Source: Alphaproteobacteria bacterium
GTDB lineage: Bacteria; Planctomycetota; Phycisphaerae; UBA1845
NCBI GenBank assembly: GCA_028285105.1
Contig: JANQQE010000030.1
Location: forward strand, 248,001 to 312,000
DNA length: 64,000 nt
Direction of reading: 5' to 3'
Under the pieces are notes generated by a model, which did not search any database, was not told the DNA's origin, and was given only the letters and a program-made list of their open reading frames with translations. A program made the position numbers and the translations under genes. Positions 1,959 through 26,861 of the stretch are shown here, piece by piece; within the stretch, counting starts at the first letter, position 1, and each line of letters starts with the position of its first letter.

Positions 1959-3008
1959 ATGGCTCAGCGCGCGGGCGGTATTGGCGTGGCAACAAGTTCG
2001 ATTGGGTTGCCGCTGCGACAGTTCGCAGCACCGATCGCGATGGACGTCGCCAGGAATGATCTGTACCCCTTGGAACTGACCCTTGCCATAGACAACACAG
2101 CCAAGCGCACCCTTCTCTTTGGACCGGCGGACAGCCACCTTCGACTGATCCGCAGCGCACTGGATGTGAAGATCACCGCCCGTGAGTCCACGATCAAGCT
2201 TAGCGGTCCGAATGATGCCATTCGGAAAGCGGCAAGCGTGCTGGATTCATTGCAGGCCCGTTTGCGCAAAGGCGACACCGTCGGTGAGGAAGATGTCAAC
2301 GCGGCGCTTGTCGCCCTCGATCACGAAGACAAGCCCATTACCGGTAAGCGTATCGCGGTCTATCACTCCAACACTTCGATCATCGCGAAGACGGAAGGGC
2401 AAGCCCGATACATTGAAGCCATCGACAATTACGACCTGACGTTTTGTCTGGGGCCTGCCGGTAGCGGAAAAACGTATCTGGCTGTCGCGATGTGCGTGGC
2501 GCTATTGAAGGAACGACGCATCCGTCGATTGGTACTGGTCCGACCCGCCGTCGAGGCCGGTGAGAAACTGGGCTATCTCCCCGGCGACATGCAGGCCAAG
2601 GTAAACCCGTACTTGCGTCCCCTGTTCGACGCGATGCACGACATGATGAGCTTCGATCAGATCAAGCGATTCATGGAGAACGACGTGATCGAAGTGGTGC
2701 CTTTGGCATTCATGCGTGGGCGGACGCTAAACCATTCAGCCGTGATTCTCGACGAGGCGCAGAACGCCACACCTTCTCAGATGTTGATGTTTCTGACACG
2801 GTTGGGCCAAAGCAGCAAGATGATCGTCACCGGTGACGCATCGCAGACCGATTTACCCAGCGGTCAGACGAACGGCGTGGTCGATGCGGTGCGGCGACTT
2901 AAAGGCATCAAGAACGTTGGCATCGTCGAACTTCAAAAAACCGACATTGTGCGCCACCGCTTGGTGCAAAATATTGTGAAGGCCTATGAAAGCAAGAATA
3001 CGTCTTAG
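1959..3008 (+). CDS. phoH: PhoH-like ATPase (YbeZ family)
   Basis: 349 residues. An N-terminal KH-like RNA-binding region (about 40-110) precedes the PhoH P-loop ATPase core: Walker A GPAGSGKT at about 165-172, the family strand LVRPAVEAGEKLGYLPGD, Walker B VILDEAQNATP near 260-270 and the sensor VTGDASQTDLP. YbeZ works with the endonuclease YbeY in 16S rRNA maturation and ribosome quality control, and ybeY lies in the same run of genes here, separated by the HD-domain gene. ATG at 1959 is 12 bases after the cdsA stop; the ribosome site is poor, so translation may depend on coupling. Confidence 0.93.
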   Translation: MAQRAGGIGVATSSIGLPLRQFAAPIAMDVARNDLYPLELTLAIDNTAKRTLLFGPADSHLRLIRSALDVKITARESTIKLSGPNDAIRKAASVLDSLQARLRKGDTVGEEDVNAALVALDHEDKPITGKRIAVYHSNTSIIAKTEGQARYIEAIDNYDLTFCLGPAGSGKTYLAVAMCVALLKERRIRRLVLVRPAVEAGEKLGYLPGDMQAKVNPYLRPLFDAMHDMMSFDQIKRFMENDVIEVVPLAFMRGRTLNHSAVILDEAQNATPSQMLMFLTRLGQSSKMIVTGDASQTDLPSGQTNGVVDAVRRLKGIKNVGIVELQKTDIVRHRLVQNIVKAYESKNTS

Positions 3009-3274
3009 CGAGATTGTAATATGCGACCTTCGAAAGGGCCTTACGAAACTGAGTCTTATGAAACTGAACGCCGTTTGATTCGTACAACCCTTGGATGCGG
3101 CATTGTTTTTCTGGTGATACGCAAGCGCGTACGAATGAACAGACAGTACTGAAAACGCAGGTTTCGCTGCAAATGCTCCAGCAGCAACCGGCAATAGACA
3201 AGGATGCCAGTTGATTCCGTCGATCAATACCCGACTCGGCTCGAACGTGATTCGACGGAACTGAGAATTTGCTG

Positions 3275-5653
3275 ATGTTTGGAATCAACAAGAAAAAGAA
3301 AGTCAGGCGCGAACGGGCGAGACAGTTCAAAGCTGAATCGACCGAGTCTCCGGTGCGCGCCTTGATTAAGAAGATCGGCTTATGGCCAGCAATTGTGACG
3401 GTCGCGTTCTTCGCACTGGCGATGGTCATCAGCCTGTCAGGTGATCCGGGGATACCCTACGCACTCAACCAACGCATTGATCAACCGATCGTTGCACGAG
3501 TCTCATTTGGCGTGGACGATTCGGCGCTTGATCGGAGCAACAAGCATTCGGCTCGTGAATCTGTTCCAAATTACTACCGGGTCAATTCCGAATTTATCGA
3601 CAGAATCGTTGGCGAACGAGAACTCTCGGCGATGTTTGAAGCTGCCCAAGCTCCGACGCTAGAGGGGTTCAAGGAAAAGGCAAGGGAGTACTCTTGGAAT
3701 GCGCATGACTACGTTTACAACCTACTAAACAATGCCAACGAAGCCACGCGCGGCAGTTTTTCCGAATCGCTAGAACAGTTGAAAGAGGATCTACTTCTTG
3801 AACAGACAGCACTACCGTCCGATCAACTCAAGCGCGAACCTCCATCGACTTCGGTTGACGCGATCATACAAATGCCCGGCACCGATGGCGGGAATGTAGC
3901 CGATCGGCGACTGCGGACGGTAGAACTCATCCGCATTTCGAGCACGCCCGCACTGGAAGGACGTGTCTGGAAACTCGCCCAACGCTTCTCGCAACAACTG
4001 CGCCCGGCGATTCGAGAATTCCTGCTTGAAGTGCTGAGCAAAGAACCGATTCTTGTTTACGATCAGGAACGAACGCAGAACGCCATGATCGTCGCCGAGC
4101 GGAACGCCCCTCGGGGCCGACGCCTGTTTGAAGGCGGCAAACCGTTCGTATTTCCACATAACCGTCCGAATGAAGAAGGTGACGGAAATCTAGACACGGG
4201 GATCACCCATGCCGAGTTGGCTCATTTGCATGCTGAACACAATGCTTTTCAAGAGTTCTTGGCGAGTGACGACCCATCGGCAATCCATGCCCGCGAACAA
4301 CGCCTTTTTGAATCGCTGGGTGTTGGAGCCATTTTGCTGATTCTTTCGATTTCAATGTTCGCGTATGTCGGGTTGTATCAACCGCGCGTCTTTGAAGTTC
4401 GCACCCGTTCGGTGGCATTTGCCGGATTGCTGCTCGTCTCCATGATAGCAATTCGACTCATTGTCGCACGACTACCCCACGCAGAATTCGCTTTGACCCC
4501 TGTGCTGCTGGTGGCTGCGATCCTGACGATTGCATATCCCCCGCGATTTGCCGCGGGCGTCACGGTCATCTACATCGCCGTCGTCGCATTGATGATTCGT
4601 GCAGACCTCGGCGCGTTCATTACGATGCTGACCGGCGGATACGTCGTTGCGATCATGCTCAATGACATTCGCACGCGTACCAAGGTCTTGTCCGTCGGTA
4701 TGTTGGCTGGCCTTTTGGTCATGGTGACTTCGTTTGCGTTCGGGCTGATCGATCATCAGGAAGTTGGGTTTGCGTTCAGACGAGCGGTGATCGGTGCTGG
4801 AAGCGCGATTCTTTCGGCGCTGATTATCCAGGGAACGCTCCCATTTATCGAGCGCTTCTTCAGAGTGGCGACGTCATTGACGTTGCTCGAATACCGCGAT
4901 GCCAATCGCCCGCTGCTGCGCCGCCTAGCCCATGAAGCCCCGGGCACGTTCAACCATTCGCTGGTGATCGGTAACATCGCCGAAACCGCGTGCAACGCCA
5001 TCGGTGCCGACGGTCTGCTCGCCCACGTCGGCGCGCTCTATCACGACATCGGAAAAATTCCAAAAGCCGAGTACTTCGCCGAAAACCAGGAAGCCTCGAT
5101 CAACCGCCACGACAAACTTGCCCCGTCGATGAGCCTTCTCATTATTCTGGGCCACGTTAAAGACGGTCTCGAACTGGCCAAGGAATACGGTATTCCGCGC
5201 GTGTTGTACCCATTCATCGCCGAACACCATGGAACCACCGTCGTCAAATTCTTCCATCACCGAGCCAGCGAAAAACAACCGCAGATCGCCAGCGGCAAAC
5301 ACGATCGGCAGGTCGATGAAGCCGAATTCCGCTATCCCGGCCCCAAGCCCGCATCGAAGGAAACGGCTGTCCTGATGCTTTGCGACGGCGTCGAGGGCGC
5401 GGTCCGAGCACTTGCCGAGCCCACGCCAGGCCGCATCGAAGGGATCGTCAGCCAGGTTCTCCAAGCCCGCCTGAAGGACGGTCAATTCAACGAGTGCGAT
5501 ATCACCCTTCGCGAATTGCATCTGGTTGAAGAATCGCTGGTCAAGAGTCTCTGCCGCTTTTATCATGGGAGGGTTGCTTATCCAAAGGGCGACGGATCGA
5601 AAGACGAGGCCAAGAAATCCAAGTCAACCGACCGGTCTAAGCTGGCGGGATGA
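3275..5653 (+). CDS. pgpH: 7TM receptor HD-domain phosphohydrolase (PgpH family)
   Basis: About 792 residues. Architecture: one N-terminal membrane segment (about 30-50), a large extracytoplasmic region (about 60-340) like the 7TMR-HDED sensor domain, seven membrane helices (about 350-520), then a cytoplasmic HD domain with NHS near 565 and the metal-binding HDIGK near 590, followed by EHHGTT. Characterised PgpH proteins hydrolyse cyclic di-AMP. In Firmicutes pgpH also sits between phoH and ybeY, so the order here is conserved across phyla. A frame-compatible TTG lies at 3269, but the ATG at 3275 is the more credible start. The 266 bases between phoH and this gene hold no supported gene. Confidence 0.9.
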   Translation: MFGINKKKKVRRERARQFKAESTESPVRALIKKIGLWPAIVTVAFFALAMVISLSGDPGIPYALNQRIDQPIVARVSFGVDDSALDRSNKHSARESVPNYYRVNSEFIDRIVGERELSAMFEAAQAPTLEGFKEKAREYSWNAHDYVYNLLNNANEATRGSFSESLEQLKEDLLLEQTALPSDQLKREPPSTSVDAIIQMPGTDGGNVADRRLRTVELIRISSTPALEGRVWKLAQRFSQQLRPAIREFLLEVLSKEPILVYDQERTQNAMIVAERNAPRGRRLFEGGKPFVFPHNRPNEEGDGNLDTGITHAELAHLHAEHNAFQEFLASDDPSAIHAREQRLFESLGVGAILLILSISMFAYVGLYQPRVFEVRTRSVAFAGLLLVSMIAIRLIVARLPHAEFALTPVLLVAAILTIAYPPRFAAGVTVIYIAVVALMIRADLGAFITMLTGGYVVAIMLNDIRTRTKVLSVGMLAGLLVMVTSFAFGLIDHQEVGFAFRRAVIGAGSAILSALIIQGTLPFIERFFRVATSLTLLEYRDANRPLLRRLAHEAPGTFNHSLVIGNIAETACNAIGADGLLAHVGALYHDIGKIPKAEYFAENQEASINRHDKLAPSMSLLIILGHVKDGLELAKEYGIPRVLYPFIAEHHGTTVVKFFHHRASEKQPQIASGKHDRQVDEAEFRYPGPKPASKETAVLMLCDGVEGAVRALAEPTPGRIEGIVSQVLQARLKDGQFNECDITLRELHLVEESLVKSLCRFYHGRVAYPKGDGSKDEAKKSKSTDRSKLAG

Positions 5654-5684: not shown

Positions 5685-6236
5685 ATGGACGTTTGCGACA
5701 ATTCTGAAGACGATTCGCCTCACGAGATATCCGTGTTTGTCGATGTTCCTGAAGACCATCTATTGGGGTCATCAGACAAGCACCGTGAAGTCGAATTGAA
5801 CAAAGCAGCGATAGACCAAGTCTTGGTGGCGGTGCGGTACACGTTGGATCATCATAGTCAGTCGCCGGGCACCATCTCCATCCGCCTCGTCAGTGACGAC
5901 GCCATCGCAAGACTTCACGAACGGACCATGAACATTTCCGGACCGACAGATGTCCTGACGTTCGATCTATCCGACGAGCAATCCGATCACGAAGACGGCG
6001 AGGCCCATCGTGTCGAGGGCGACATCGTCATTTCGCTCGACACCGCCGCCCGCGAAGCCACCAATCGCCAACACGCGTTGACCCACGAATTGATGCTTTA
6101 TGCGATACATGCCACGTTGCACCTGCTGGGTTTTGACGATCGCAACGAATCCGATGCCGCTGGAATGCACGCCGAAGAAGATAAGATTTTGACTGCGCTG
6201 GGTGTCGGAGCAGTTTACGGGAGGCCGGTCAATTGA
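5685..6236 (+). CDS. ybeY: Endoribonuclease YbeY
   Basis: 183 residues from ATG 5685, 32 bases after the pgpH stop. YbeY is a single-metal RNase needed for rRNA 3'-end maturation. The core is recognisable: GPTDVLTFDL, then VEGDIVISLDTA, then HATLHLLGFDD at about 142-152. The usual zinc triad is HxxxHxxxxxH; here His142 and His146 are kept but the third ligand is Asp152. Asp can still bind metal, so loss of activity should not be assumed. The stop overlaps the TTG start of the next gene by four bases, pointing to translational coupling. Confidence 0.92.
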   Translation: MDVCDNSEDDSPHEISVFVDVPEDHLLGSSDKHREVELNKAAIDQVLVAVRYTLDHHSQSPGTISIRLVSDDAIARLHERTMNISGPTDVLTFDLSDEQSDHEDGEAHRVEGDIVISLDTAAREATNRQHALTHELMLYAIHATLHLLGFDDRNESDAAGMHAEEDKILTALGVGAVYGRPVN

Positions 6237-6955
6237 ACATCAGCTTGATCCAACCCAAGCTCAGTATCGCCGAACGGGCCAACAACCTGATGATGCTCGG
6301 TAGCATGATTCGGCGGGAGGCTCGTCACACGCCTGCACCCGACCTTGTGATTCTGCCCGATTGCTGCGTCGCGACTCAGGAAACGGATCGACAGTCGCAG
6401 GTGACGGCGGCGATGTGTCAGGGATTTGCCGAAGCGTTCGCGAGTTGGGCCCGGGAATGGGGCATCTGGATCGCGGTTGGACATTCGATCGTAACCGAGG
6501 CCGGGTTGGAGGAATTCGCCACATTGTTTGACCCGGATGGCGATCCATTTATACGGGCGAAGGATCCGACAGAGACCACGAACCCGAGTAGCGCGTGGCA
6601 AGTCCGCAATTCACCGATTGGCCGCATCGCCCTGTGTTCGTGGAACAAACCGACGATGGACGGCTGCCCTCCGATTGAGACAACGATACCACCGGATCTG
6701 GTCGTCATTCCGGCGATAAGCCCGAATCGTGCGGCGATTGAAACGATGGCCAAGCGCCATTCGGCTTACGCAGCGTTTGTCGGATGCGTACTCGACCAAT
6801 CGGATCAAGAGGTCGTGAGTTATTGCGCCGATCGCAGCGGAAAGATCATTGCAGAGACAACGCCCGGCATTGCGACTTCGACATTTGTGACGGTTGACAT
6901 CGAGCCATGCAACACAACCGACGACCCATGGGAGGCCAGCGAACTTCTTGAGTAA
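6233..6955 (+). CDS. Soluble nitrilase-fold (C-N hydrolase superfamily) protein
   Basis: 240 residues, start TTG at 6233 overlapping the ybeY stop, with GGGAGG about 8 bases upstream. The beginning (MNISLIQPKLS), the LVILPD strand (about 38-43), Lys110 in a RAKDP context and Cys135 in IALCSW follow the Glu-Lys-Cys order of the C-N hydrolase superfamily, but the catalytic Glu position is Asp43. No membrane segment is visible. It may be a degenerate or altered amidase. Its position between ybeY and the corC-like gene is where many bacteria have, close by, lnt, whose catalytic domain is also a nitrilase fold. Substrate unknown. Confidence 0.7.
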   Translation: MNISLIQPKLSIAERANNLMMLGSMIRREARHTPAPDLVILPDCCVATQETDRQSQVTAAMCQGFAEAFASWAREWGIWIAVGHSIVTEAGLEEFATLFDPDGDPFIRAKDPTETTNPSSAWQVRNSPIGRIALCSWNKPTMDGCPPIETTIPPDLVVIPAISPNRAAIETMAKRHSAYAAFVGCVLDQSDQEVVSYCADRSGKIIAETTPGIATSTFVTVDIEPCNTTDDPWEASELLE

Positions 6956-8231
6956 TCATACTGCGTCCATCTTGATCGCCCTGTTGTTGACGTTGATGTT
7001 GATGTTCACCGCGACGCTGAGTCTTGCGCTGCGGTTGTCATCGCGCGTGCGCATGCGCGAATCGCTCGAACGAAAGGGCAAAGGGCACCTGATGGATCGG
7101 CTGGTCGAGCTTCGTTTGGAGTTGGCACACTCGGTGGCCGCCCTTCGCACGGCTTTCACGTTGGCGCTGGCACTCGTGTCGCTTCGGTTCTTTGAAACGT
7201 CGTCCATCCAGCAAGCGTATTGGCAGTACATTCTGGCGTTCGTCGGATCGTTTGCGTTGGTCATCATTTTTGGAGTGGCGATTCCTTCGGCATGGTCGAA
7301 GTATGCCGGCGAATCGATGTTGGCATTTTTGTTACCGCTGGTGTTGGCGTTACGGCACATCTTCTTTCCTATCGTTGCGGCGCTGCGGGTCGTGGATGGG
7401 CTCGTACGCCGGTTGGCTGGCGTCCCTGAAGACAGCATCGAAGAAGAGACCGCCCGTCACGAGCGCGAGTTGTTGGCGGCTGTCAGCGAGGGCGAAAAGC
7501 TCGGTGCGGTAGACGAAGAAGAAAAGGAGATGATCGAATCGGTCATCGATCTCGATGAAACCAGCGTCGCTGCGATCATGACCCCACGGACGGAAATATC
7601 AGCTGTCGAGAAAAACGCGACGTTCGCCGACATCAAAGACCTGATCAAATCGATCGGCCACTCGCGCATTCCGGTTTATGAAGAAACGATCGACAACGTA
7701 CTTGGAATTGTCTACGCCAAGGATCTGCTGCAAATCCACCCCGATGCCGAATGGGTGCTCAAGGACGTGATGCGACCAGCCCCCTTCATCCCCGAAACCA
7801 AAAACGTCCGCGAATTGCTCCACGAATTCCAGACACAGAAGGTTCACATGGCCATCGTGTTGGACGAGTACGGCGGGACGGCTGGTCTGGTGACGATTGA
7901 GGATATCTTGGAGGAATTGGTCGGCGAAATCGTGGATGAATACGATGCCGACGAACCGGAACCGCTCACCCGCATCGACGACGACACGATGGAAATCGAC
8001 GCCAGGGTCCGCATCGACGAGATCAACGAAGAACTCGACATCGAACTGCCCGAGTCGGAAAGTTACGACACCATCGGCGGATTCGTCTTCAGCGCCTTAG
8101 GCCGCATCCCCGAAACCGGCGACTCCTGCCAACACGAAAACGTAAACATCCGAATCGTCCACGCAGAGCCGCGTCGCATTAAACGTTTGCGCGTACATGT
8201 CAACCGCAACGGCGAAAGTGAACAGCCTTAG
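6948..8231 (+). CDS. CorC/HlyC-family membrane protein with CBS pair (YbeX-like)
   Basis: About 427 residues from TTG 6948, which overlaps the end of the preceding gene; GGGAGG lies 12 bases upstream. An N-terminal DUF21-like membrane region (helices near 5-25, 65-85, 90-115 and 120-140) is followed by the linker EEEKEMIESVIDL, two CBS motifs starting at MTPRTEI (about 211) and VMRPAPFIPETK, and a C-terminal CorC_HlyC domain with DEYGGTAGLVTIEDILEELVGEI. Proteins of this family are implicated in magnesium/cobalt efflux and, as YbeX, in rRNA metabolism together with YbeZ and YbeY, which fits the neighbours. It closes the plus-strand block. Confidence 0.88.
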   Translation: MSNHTASILIALLLTLMLMFTATLSLALRLSSRVRMRESLERKGKGHLMDRLVELRLELAHSVAALRTAFTLALALVSLRFFETSSIQQAYWQYILAFVGSFALVIIFGVAIPSAWSKYAGESMLAFLLPLVLALRHIFFPIVAALRVVDGLVRRLAGVPEDSIEEETARHERELLAAVSEGEKLGAVDEEEKEMIESVIDLDETSVAAIMTPRTEISAVEKNATFADIKDLIKSIGHSRIPVYEETIDNVLGIVYAKDLLQIHPDAEWVLKDVMRPAPFIPETKNVRELLHEFQTQKVHMAIVLDEYGGTAGLVTIEDILEELVGEIVDEYDADEPEPLTRIDDDTMEIDARVRIDEINEELDIELPESESYDTIGGFVFSALGRIPETGDSCQHENVNIRIVHAEPRRIKRLRVHVNRNGESEQP

Positions 8232-25205: not shown

Positions 25206-26861
25206 ATGCTGATCGCGCTGGCACAAATCAATCCCACTGTCGGAGACATCGACGGAAACGTTGAGAAGATTCTCAGTGCTATCGACGTCGCCCGAAGCAA
25301 GAGTGCAAACATGGTTCTTTTTCCGGAACTGTCCGTGCCCGGTTATCCGCCGCGCGATCTGCTCCTCCGCAAGAACTTCGTTCAGCGAAACGTTGCAGCC
25401 ATCGAACGAATCGCTTCGGCTTCCAAAGACATCATCTCGGTGGTCGGTTTCGCGTCGCCCAACACCGATTCTGCCGGTAAAGAACTATACAACGCGGCTG
25501 CGGTCTGCCAGGATGGGAAGGTGCTGTCCACTTATCGCAAGCGGTTGCTACCGACGTACGACGTTTTCGACGAATCGCGCTATTTCGCGCCGGGCGACAC
25601 GACCGATTCGCTGGATATTACCGTCGCGGGCCAACCAATGAGATTGGGCGTCACCATTTGTGAAGACCTCTGGAACGACGAACCCTACATCAACCGCAAA
25701 CTCTACGGTGCAGATCCCATCGCCGATCTGGCCAAACTCGGCGTGGACCTGATCGTCAACATCTCGGCGTCTCCGTTTTCGATGGGCAAACAACGCTCCC
25801 GCGAGGAATTGTTCTCCCGACAGGTGGCGGAACACAGCATTCCGTTGGCACTGGTCAATCAAGTCGGCGGTAATGACGATCTAATCTTCGACGGTGCGAG
25901 CGCCTTTTTCGACGCATCCGGAAAATGCACGGTGCGGTGCAAGTCGTTCGCCGAAGACATGCAATTCGTTGACACCGATAGCCCACCATCATCGCTACCC
26001 ATCGAACTACCCAAAGACATCGCAGCCGTTCATGACGCCTTGGTCCTGGGCACGCGCGACTACGTCACCAAATGCGGTTTTTCTGACGTCGTCATTGGAC
26101 TGAGTGGCGGCATCGACTCAGCCGTGACAGCCGCCCTTGCGGTTGAAGCATTGGGAAAGGAATCTGTTTACGGTGTGGCGATGCCTTCGCGCATCAGCAG
26201 CGACCACAGCGTGGACGATGCCGAGCAACTATCGACGAATCTCGGAATCGATCATCGCGTCATTCCGATCAACAAGATTCACAAGGTCGCAGAAGAAACG
26301 TTGGCCCCCAGTTTTAAAGGCACGACACCGGGCGTCGCCGAAGAAAACATTCAGGCGAGGGCGCGCGGCGGAATTCTGATGGCGTTGTCGAACAAGTTTG
26401 GTTGGCTGCTGTTGACGACAGGAAACAAGAGCGAACTCGCGGTTGGTTACTGCACGCTTTATGGCGACATGTGCGGCGGGTTGGCTGTCATCAGTGACGT
26501 CCCCAAGATGATGGTCTACGGGTTGGCCCGGTACATCAACGAGCGGGCAGGCCAACCGATGATACCCCAGAACACGATCGACAAGGTCCCGTCAGCCGAA
26601 CTTCGTGAGAACCAAACCGATCAGGACAGCCTCCCCCCCTATGACGTTCTCGACGCCATCTTGCAGCAATACGTCGAAAAAGAATTGGATATCGCCGATA
26701 TCGTAGCCAGCGGCTTCGATCGGGATCTGGTCGTCGAAATCGCGCGTAAAGTCGATCGCAACGAATACAAGCGTAAGCAAGCCGCCACCGGCTTGAAAGT
26801 CACATCAAGAGCATTCGGCTCCGGTCGCAGGATGCCCATCGCAGCCAAATACGCCTACTAA
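25206..26861 (+). CDS. nadE: Glutamine-dependent NAD+ synthetase
   Basis: 551 residues. Amidates deamido-NAD with ammonia from glutamine. The N-terminal nitrilase-type glutaminase (1-260) has its triad in FPELSVPGYPP (Glu), YRKRLLPTYDVFDE (Lys) and VTICEDLW (Cys). The C-terminal synthetase (about 280-551) has the PP-loop SGGIDSAVTAALAVEA, then TTGNKSELAVGYCTLYGDMCGG, and ends with RRMPIAAKY. Cotranscription with mqnD is likely from the 18-base spacing. Confidence 0.96.
   Translation: MLIALAQINPTVGDIDGNVEKILSAIDVARSKSANMVLFPELSVPGYPPRDLLLRKNFVQRNVAAIERIASASKDIISVVGFASPNTDSAGKELYNAAAVCQDGKVLSTYRKRLLPTYDVFDESRYFAPGDTTDSLDITVAGQPMRLGVTICEDLWNDEPYINRKLYGADPIADLAKLGVDLIVNISASPFSMGKQRSREELFSRQVAEHSIPLALVNQVGGNDDLIFDGASAFFDASGKCTVRCKSFAEDMQFVDTDSPPSSLPIELPKDIAAVHDALVLGTRDYVTKCGFSDVVIGLSGGIDSAVTAALAVEALGKESVYGVAMPSRISSDHSVDDAEQLSTNLGIDHRVIPINKIHKVAEETLAPSFKGTTPGVAEENIQARARGGILMALSNKFGWLLLTTGNKSELAVGYCTLYGDMCGGLAVISDVPKMMVYGLARYINERAGQPMIPQNTIDKVPSAELRENQTDQDSLPPYDVLDAILQQYVEKELDIADIVASGFDRDLVVEIARKVDRNEYKRKQAATGLKVTSRAFGSGRRMPIAAKYAY

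Follow-up and report, generated by a model that had tools for sequence, protein, structure and literature searches.

A nitrilase-fold protein without the catalytic triad, conserved between ybeY and corC in one order of Phycisphaerae

Introduction

In the 64,000-nucleotide stretch of DNA analyzed here (the window), a gene for a soluble protein of the nitrilase fold lies between ybeY and corC. This position raises the question of what such a protein does there. The original prediction, made from the sequence alone, offered two answers: the protein may act in the same process as the membrane enzyme Lnt without its membrane part, or it may be a non-catalytic partner. We compared the gene, its product, and its neighbors across the order to which the window genome belongs and beyond it.

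Results

Locus and fold

The nitrilase-fold gene is an open reading frame at positions 6233 to 6955 of the forward strand, with a TTG start and a product of 240 amino acids, as originally predicted. It belongs to a conserved block headed by phoH (ybeZ; 1959 to 3008), followed by a gene for a 7TM-HD protein of the PgpH/YqfF type (3269 to 5653). The block continues with ybeY, which encodes an rRNA maturation RNase (5685 to 6236; frame open from 5526, ATG at 5685 chosen), the nitrilase-fold gene, and a gene of the corC/CNNM family with CBS and CorC_HlyC domains (6948 to 8231; open from 6894, TTG at 6948 chosen). All are on the forward strand, and the locus in full is phoH-pgpH-ybeY-X-corC, where X is the nitrilase-fold gene. 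The phoH-ybeY-corC order had been given correctly, but without the 7TM-HD gene that follows phoH. The overlaps through TTG codons on both sides were also found: TTGA at 6233 to 6236 (forward strand) holds both the start of the nitrilase-fold gene and the stop of ybeY, a 4-base overlap, and the chosen corC start overlaps the stop of the nitrilase-fold gene by 8 bases.

The nitrilase fold is clear with relatives but not from the window protein alone, because singly it meets no curated threshold. The window protein scored 15.1 bits against Pfam CN_hydrolase (PF00795; cut-off 23.2), and an NCBIfam search with E up to 1 matched no family, so annotation pipelines see little of it. CN_hydrolase was matched by 21 of 28 family members (best E 8e-21). 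A profile of these 28 members, searched against PDB sequences, found mouse Nit2 (2w1v; E 1.5e-11, positions 2-242 of 250), yeast Nit3 (1.3e-9), and NitFhit (9.2e-8); a calmodulin row overlapping the DxDGD stretch described below was not significant (E 2). Structure prediction and alignment to NIT families, the check suggested originally, gave a weak AlphaFold2 model built with the window protein and one relative (pLDDT 55.8, pTM 0.56), and its nearest folds were of the nitrilase type. All 50 Foldseek matches listed for this model were nitrilase-superfamily proteins (best E 3.6e-10), and VIA-align gave Z 15.6 to 1ems (208 aligned residues, rmsd 3.8), with another match within 1 Z below. By homology and by its alpha-beta-beta-alpha fold the protein belongs to the nitrilase superfamily (PF00795), and this part of the original prediction stands.

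Loss of the catalytic triad and newly conserved residues

Enzymes of the nitrilase superfamily have a Glu-Lys-Cys triad. When 42 members were aligned with CN_hydrolases of the window genome and of the class (L145, cut to 43 residues, was left out), Glu was found in three of them (L006, L016, and L022), and catalytic Lys and Cys were found in none. A larger alignment started from 60 relatives, four of which were dropped for an unaligned Glu or Lys; in the remaining 56, Glu and Lys are present in all by choice, and Cys, which was not a selection criterion, is also present in 56/56. The window protein has Asp43 (6359 to 6361, forward strand) in the Glu column, Asp111 (6563 to 6565, forward strand) in the Lys column, and Trp137 (6641 to 6643, forward strand) in the Cys column. 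Asp43 had been recognized in place of the catalytic Glu. The accompanying claim that Lys110 and Cys135 are kept failed: two alignments place the Lys and Cys columns at Asp111 and Trp137, residue 110 varies among the genus mates (N, S, W, and T in the four), one of which has R at 135. Judged from these alignments, the nitrilase active site is dead.

Other residues have become conserved in the family. Asp100, Asp102, and Asp104 are kept in 42/42, 40/42, and 42/42 members (codons of Asp100-Pro-Asp102-Gly-Asp104 in the window protein, the DxDGD hairpin of the family, at 6530 to 6544, forward strand), and the DxDxD pattern at 100/102/104 occurs in 40/42 members versus 0/56 catalytic relatives. Arg15 (6275 to 6277, forward strand) is kept in 38/42 members versus 3/56 catalytic relatives, and Pro36 in 40/42 versus 0/56. 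Trp76 (6458 to 6460, forward strand) is kept in 37/42 members and does not rank among the five most frequent residues at that column in the 56 catalytic relatives. The catalytic relatives often share Asp100 (40/56), Asp102 (38/56), and Gly103 (56/56); new in the family are Asp104, Arg15, Pro36, and Trp76. Most of these residues precede strands 2, 3, and 5, which would put them at the far end of the fold from the old pocket, a placement taken from the secondary-structure order of the weak model and not from its coordinates.

In a rival reading the protein is an enzyme whose active site was re-invented, for example with Cys45/Asp46 or the aspartates of DxDGD. Cys occupies column 45 in 29/42 members and Asp occupies column 46 in 32/42, and Asp100 and Asp104 are invariant. 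However, the window genus has Val at 46, Cys is absent from most members of family f8, no nucleophile is invariant, and topology puts Asp100-Asp104, ahead of strand 5, away from the former pocket. We give a new enzyme of this kind a small chance.

Distribution and evolution

The nitrilase-fold gene is present in one copy in 43 of 114 genomes of the order (Phycisphaerae, UBA1845 group). It lies directly after ybeY in 41 of the 43 carriers; the following gene could be assessed in 40 of these and is corC in 38. A protein search of 60 genomes, including the window genome, had a match in 29, and in these the gene is between ybeY and corC at every locus showing both neighbors. YbeY, present in 107/114 genomes of the order, was used as an unbiased anchor, and 80 more ybeY loci were read within the order, along with 20 from 19 families outside it. 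In total, 127 ybeY loci and two loci without a visible ybeY were classed. The nitrilase-fold gene is directly after ybeY in 41 of the 127, ybeY and corC are adjacent in 48, and no corC was seen in 33; three are at a contig end and two have corC further on. For the other two members (L015 and L022), which bring the carriers to 43, the retrieved piece shows no ybeY.

A profile search of the 114 genomes gave 41 places of at least 122 bits, all of them known family loci; the next place scored 77.5 bits, with none in between. Two members fall outside this set: that of G036, which is divergent (63.5 bits), and that of G211, which is truncated at the end of its contig. Outside the order, the gene is absent from all 20 ybeY loci read. 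In 120 genomes of the class, comparison by eye showed that the matches beside ybeY were the order's members only. A search of the phylum (294 genomes, E up to 1e-12) gave no score above 100.7 bits except for the window protein, and the nine best other matches had neither ybeY nor corC beside them.

This survey of gene order had been proposed with the original prediction, which named an order specific to one genome, together with full-length lnt, as its refutation; the order recurs in 43 genomes. One genus mate of the window genome is Phycisphaerales bacterium UBA1845. A neighbor order kept in 43 genomes is far beyond chance, and the place in the ybeY-corC operon is conserved, as would be expected of a functional partner of YbeY or CorC. 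A corC gene is found at the locus in 38/40 carriers versus 36/63 non-carriers (Fisher p 1.4e-5). This association is given no weight as a sign that the gene depends on a local corC, because the loci share ancestry and most of the corC losses come from the single family f4.

Separately, no locus of family f4 (L099-L122) shows corC after ybeY, and the upstream phoH-HD part is mostly kept there. Several f8 genomes (L141, L143, L146, L147, and L148) have a putative RecO-like gene, named from its sequence, as the next gene where corC is gone; in L148 it comes after the nitrilase-fold gene.

In a nitrilase tree, 42 members form one side of a branch (SH-aLRT 98, quick method). Members of families f6 and f7 that keep Glu (L016 and L022) are nearest to catalytic hydrolases such as L171, which has a full triad. 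On a tree of neighbor proteins from 121 loci, presence of the gene needs 16 changes, at least 13 of them forced, versus a shuffled mean of 34.5. One gain followed by many losses is the simplest history, because members share the same slot and form one clade, and it is probably the correct one. The gene is dispensable, since it is often lost and no copy was found in 71 of the 114 genomes. These gains and losses within one order provide natural pairs with and without the gene, some in one genus; in genus g23, G026 and G192 have it and G193 does not.

Mean pairwise identity is 25% in the nitrilase-fold family, 40% in YbeY, and 47% in CorC. Of 11 pairs of the nitrilase-fold gene, 10 gave a finite dS, several near saturation, and in these Nei-Gojobori dN/dS ranged from 0.068 to 0.47; for the same pairs it was 0.185-0.495 in YbeY (11 pairs) and 0.020-0.121 in the HD protein (10/11). 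The family is under purifying selection, and the dN/dS range therefore describes a fast-evolving but constrained protein. The many losses, the low identity, and the adjacency of ybeY and corC after loss would also fit a decaying gene that hitch-hikes in a strong operon. This is improbable: 41/43 members have intact frames of 227-280 codons (a contig end or a stretch of N truncates the other two), dN/dS is below one-half in every pair with finite dS, and Asp104 is invariant despite long divergence.

Start codons and translational coupling

The start of the nitrilase-fold gene overlaps the ybeY stop by 4 bases in 28 of the 41 members with a visible ybeY, a figure biased toward overlap because start selection, manual for 28 and scripted for the rest, favored codons close to the end of ybeY. 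Across 43 members there are 31 ATG, 8 GTG, and 4 TTG starts, one GTG being an artefact of a cut member, and a Shine-Dalgarno-like word precedes 28/43. In the window this word is GGGAGG (6219 to 6224, forward strand), read within ybeY 8 bases 5' of the TTG start. The arrangement suggests that the nitrilase-fold gene is translationally coupled to ybeY. Downstream, the gap to corC is variable across members, and an 8-base overlap is possible in 5/5 members of the window genus.

It could be argued that what tunes the expression of corC after ybeY is the reading of the frame and not its protein product. Starts overlap on both sides in the window genus, and modulation of corC translation has been reported in enterobacteria (PMC12421838, in excerpt); but conservation is at the protein level and the distance to corC varies in other members, which makes a translation-coupling spacer very unlikely.

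Relation to Lnt

The window genome has its own Lnt (234.4 bits, cut-off 132.9) with Glu, Lys, and Cys readable. Lnt is above the cut-off in 107/114 genomes of the order and in 40/43 carriers. The three exceptions among the carriers are G190 (71% complete), G010 (matched only in part), and G205, where Lnt is in two pieces on separate contigs. The presence of full-length lnt alongside the gene had been named as one part of the evidence that would refute the original prediction, and this is what was found; the nitrilase-fold gene is therefore no stand-in for Lnt. The window protein did not match the Lnt model (TIGR00546) in the NCBIfam search with E up to 1, and searching PDB sequences with the profile up to E 10 brought up no Lnt chain. 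Lnt was also not among the VIA-align matches listed, which is neutral for either reading, and in the nitrilase tree it is a long branch whose exact place is unsure. The highest 19-residue hydropathy mean of the window protein is 1.03 and it has no membrane segment; the transmembrane domain of at least six helices and the triad of Lnt are both absent.

A soluble substitute or helper of Lnt in lipoprotein N-acylation, without the membrane part, is suggested by the shared Salmonella operon of corC and lnt (PMC12421838, in excerpt) and by the nitrilase fold of the Lnt enzyme (PMC5500890, in excerpt), but is extremely unlikely given Lnt elsewhere in nearly all carriers, the lost triad, the missing NCBIfam match and membrane segment, and closest folds of the Nit and amidase types. 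Lnt origin or replacement was ruled out by the Lnt searches in the window genome and across the order together with the PDB search, and the Lnt survey refutes the substitute version.

Two other nitrilase-type loci were seen in the window genome. A second nitrilase-fold domain in the window (25209 to 25979, in a 553-codon frame) has Glu, Lys, and Cys intact; by sequence, with a family search covering CN_hydrolase, it appears to be the glutaminase domain of a glutamine-dependent NAD synthetase. A 492-codon frame at G000:C1:173759-175072 (L032) has two tandem CN_hydrolase stretches.

Discussion

The nitrilase-fold clade is real and, as far as searches of the open-licence PMC literature show, undescribed; no description of the family was found there, and print elsewhere may differ. 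Across the whole clade, catalysis has been lost and a new set of invariant residues gained. Binding is probably its role instead of catalysis, because the triad is lost and a different charged set is conserved. We consider it moderately probable that the protein is a lineage-specific pseudoenzyme, coupled to YbeY, that binds a product of its own operon. The suggestion of a non-catalytic partner was thus right as to the missing catalysis; the partnership is a candidate role that gene order and the 4-base coupling to ybeY point to.

The pseudoenzyme could have arisen in a few steps. In an ancestor of the order, the gene of a soluble catalytic CN_hydrolase would have entered the ybeY-corC junction a single time and then gained translational coupling to ybeY. 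Glu, Lys, and Cys would have been lost while the alpha-beta-beta-alpha fold was retained, and the set conserved today is Arg15, Pro36, Arg74-x-Trp76-Gly, and Asp100-x-Asp102-Gly-Asp104. The protein would bind a product of its operon, YbeY first and CorC second, as an adaptor or regulator in rRNA maturation or Mg2+ handling. YbeY is ranked first because it is the constant neighbor with the coupled start, and it is slightly preferred over CorC because two members keep ybeY without corC next downstream.

The metal ligands of YbeY follow the pattern HxxxHxxxxxH. In a count by simple pattern, in which 23 loci were not read and one matched at the wrong place, Asp replaces the third zinc-ligand His in 37/41 carriers, 49/66 non-carriers of the order, and 17/20 loci outside the order. 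A special YbeY was considered as the reason for the gene and rejected, because the His-to-Asp change occurs with and without the gene and also outside the order.

The aspartates of DxDGD are spaced like the three leading acidic ligands in an EF-hand loop. The hairpin might be a putative divalent-cation site gained as the triad was lost, making the protein an adaptor responsive to Mg2+ (or Ca2+); we regard this as a speculative extension with little probability. If true, a nitrilase fold would have become a cation sensor that connects YbeY, in ribosome maturation, with CorC, in the handling of Mg2+. The corC gene of Salmonella shares a transcript with ybeZ, ybeY, and lnt, and the CorC proteins there give protection against an excess of Mg2+ (PMC12421838, in excerpt). 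By this analogy the process served by the pseudoenzyme is likely to be ribosome maturation and Mg2+ handling, which the operon joins.

Among known systems, Nit, Nit2, Nit3, and NitFhit (superfamily branch 10) share the fold over nearly the whole length and gave the best profile and structure matches. A precedent for a Nit protein with a binding partner is human Nit1, which interacts directly with Fhit (PMC9913352, in excerpt). Nit and NitFhit proteins have Glu-Lys-Cys, a feature of the superfamily (PMC5500890, in excerpt), whereas the ybeY-linked family has neither the triad nor an Fhit domain. The closest sequences found outside the family are soluble CN_hydrolases of Planctomycetota of the L171 type (100.7 bits; L171 is 38% identical to member L016). 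Unlike the family, L171 has a full triad and has neither ybeY nor corC beside it. Lnt resembles the family in its nitrilase-fold domain and in its gene, which in Salmonella belongs to the ybeZ-ybeY-corC operon (PMC12421838, in excerpt), but it is a membrane enzyme with the triad and at least six helices (PMC5500890, in excerpt) and is encoded separately in the same genomes. The phoH-pgpH-ybeY-corC block itself is found without an extra gene across the class Phycisphaerae; the order studied here differs in carrying, in 43 of its 114 genomes, a nitrilase-fold gene between ybeY and corC.
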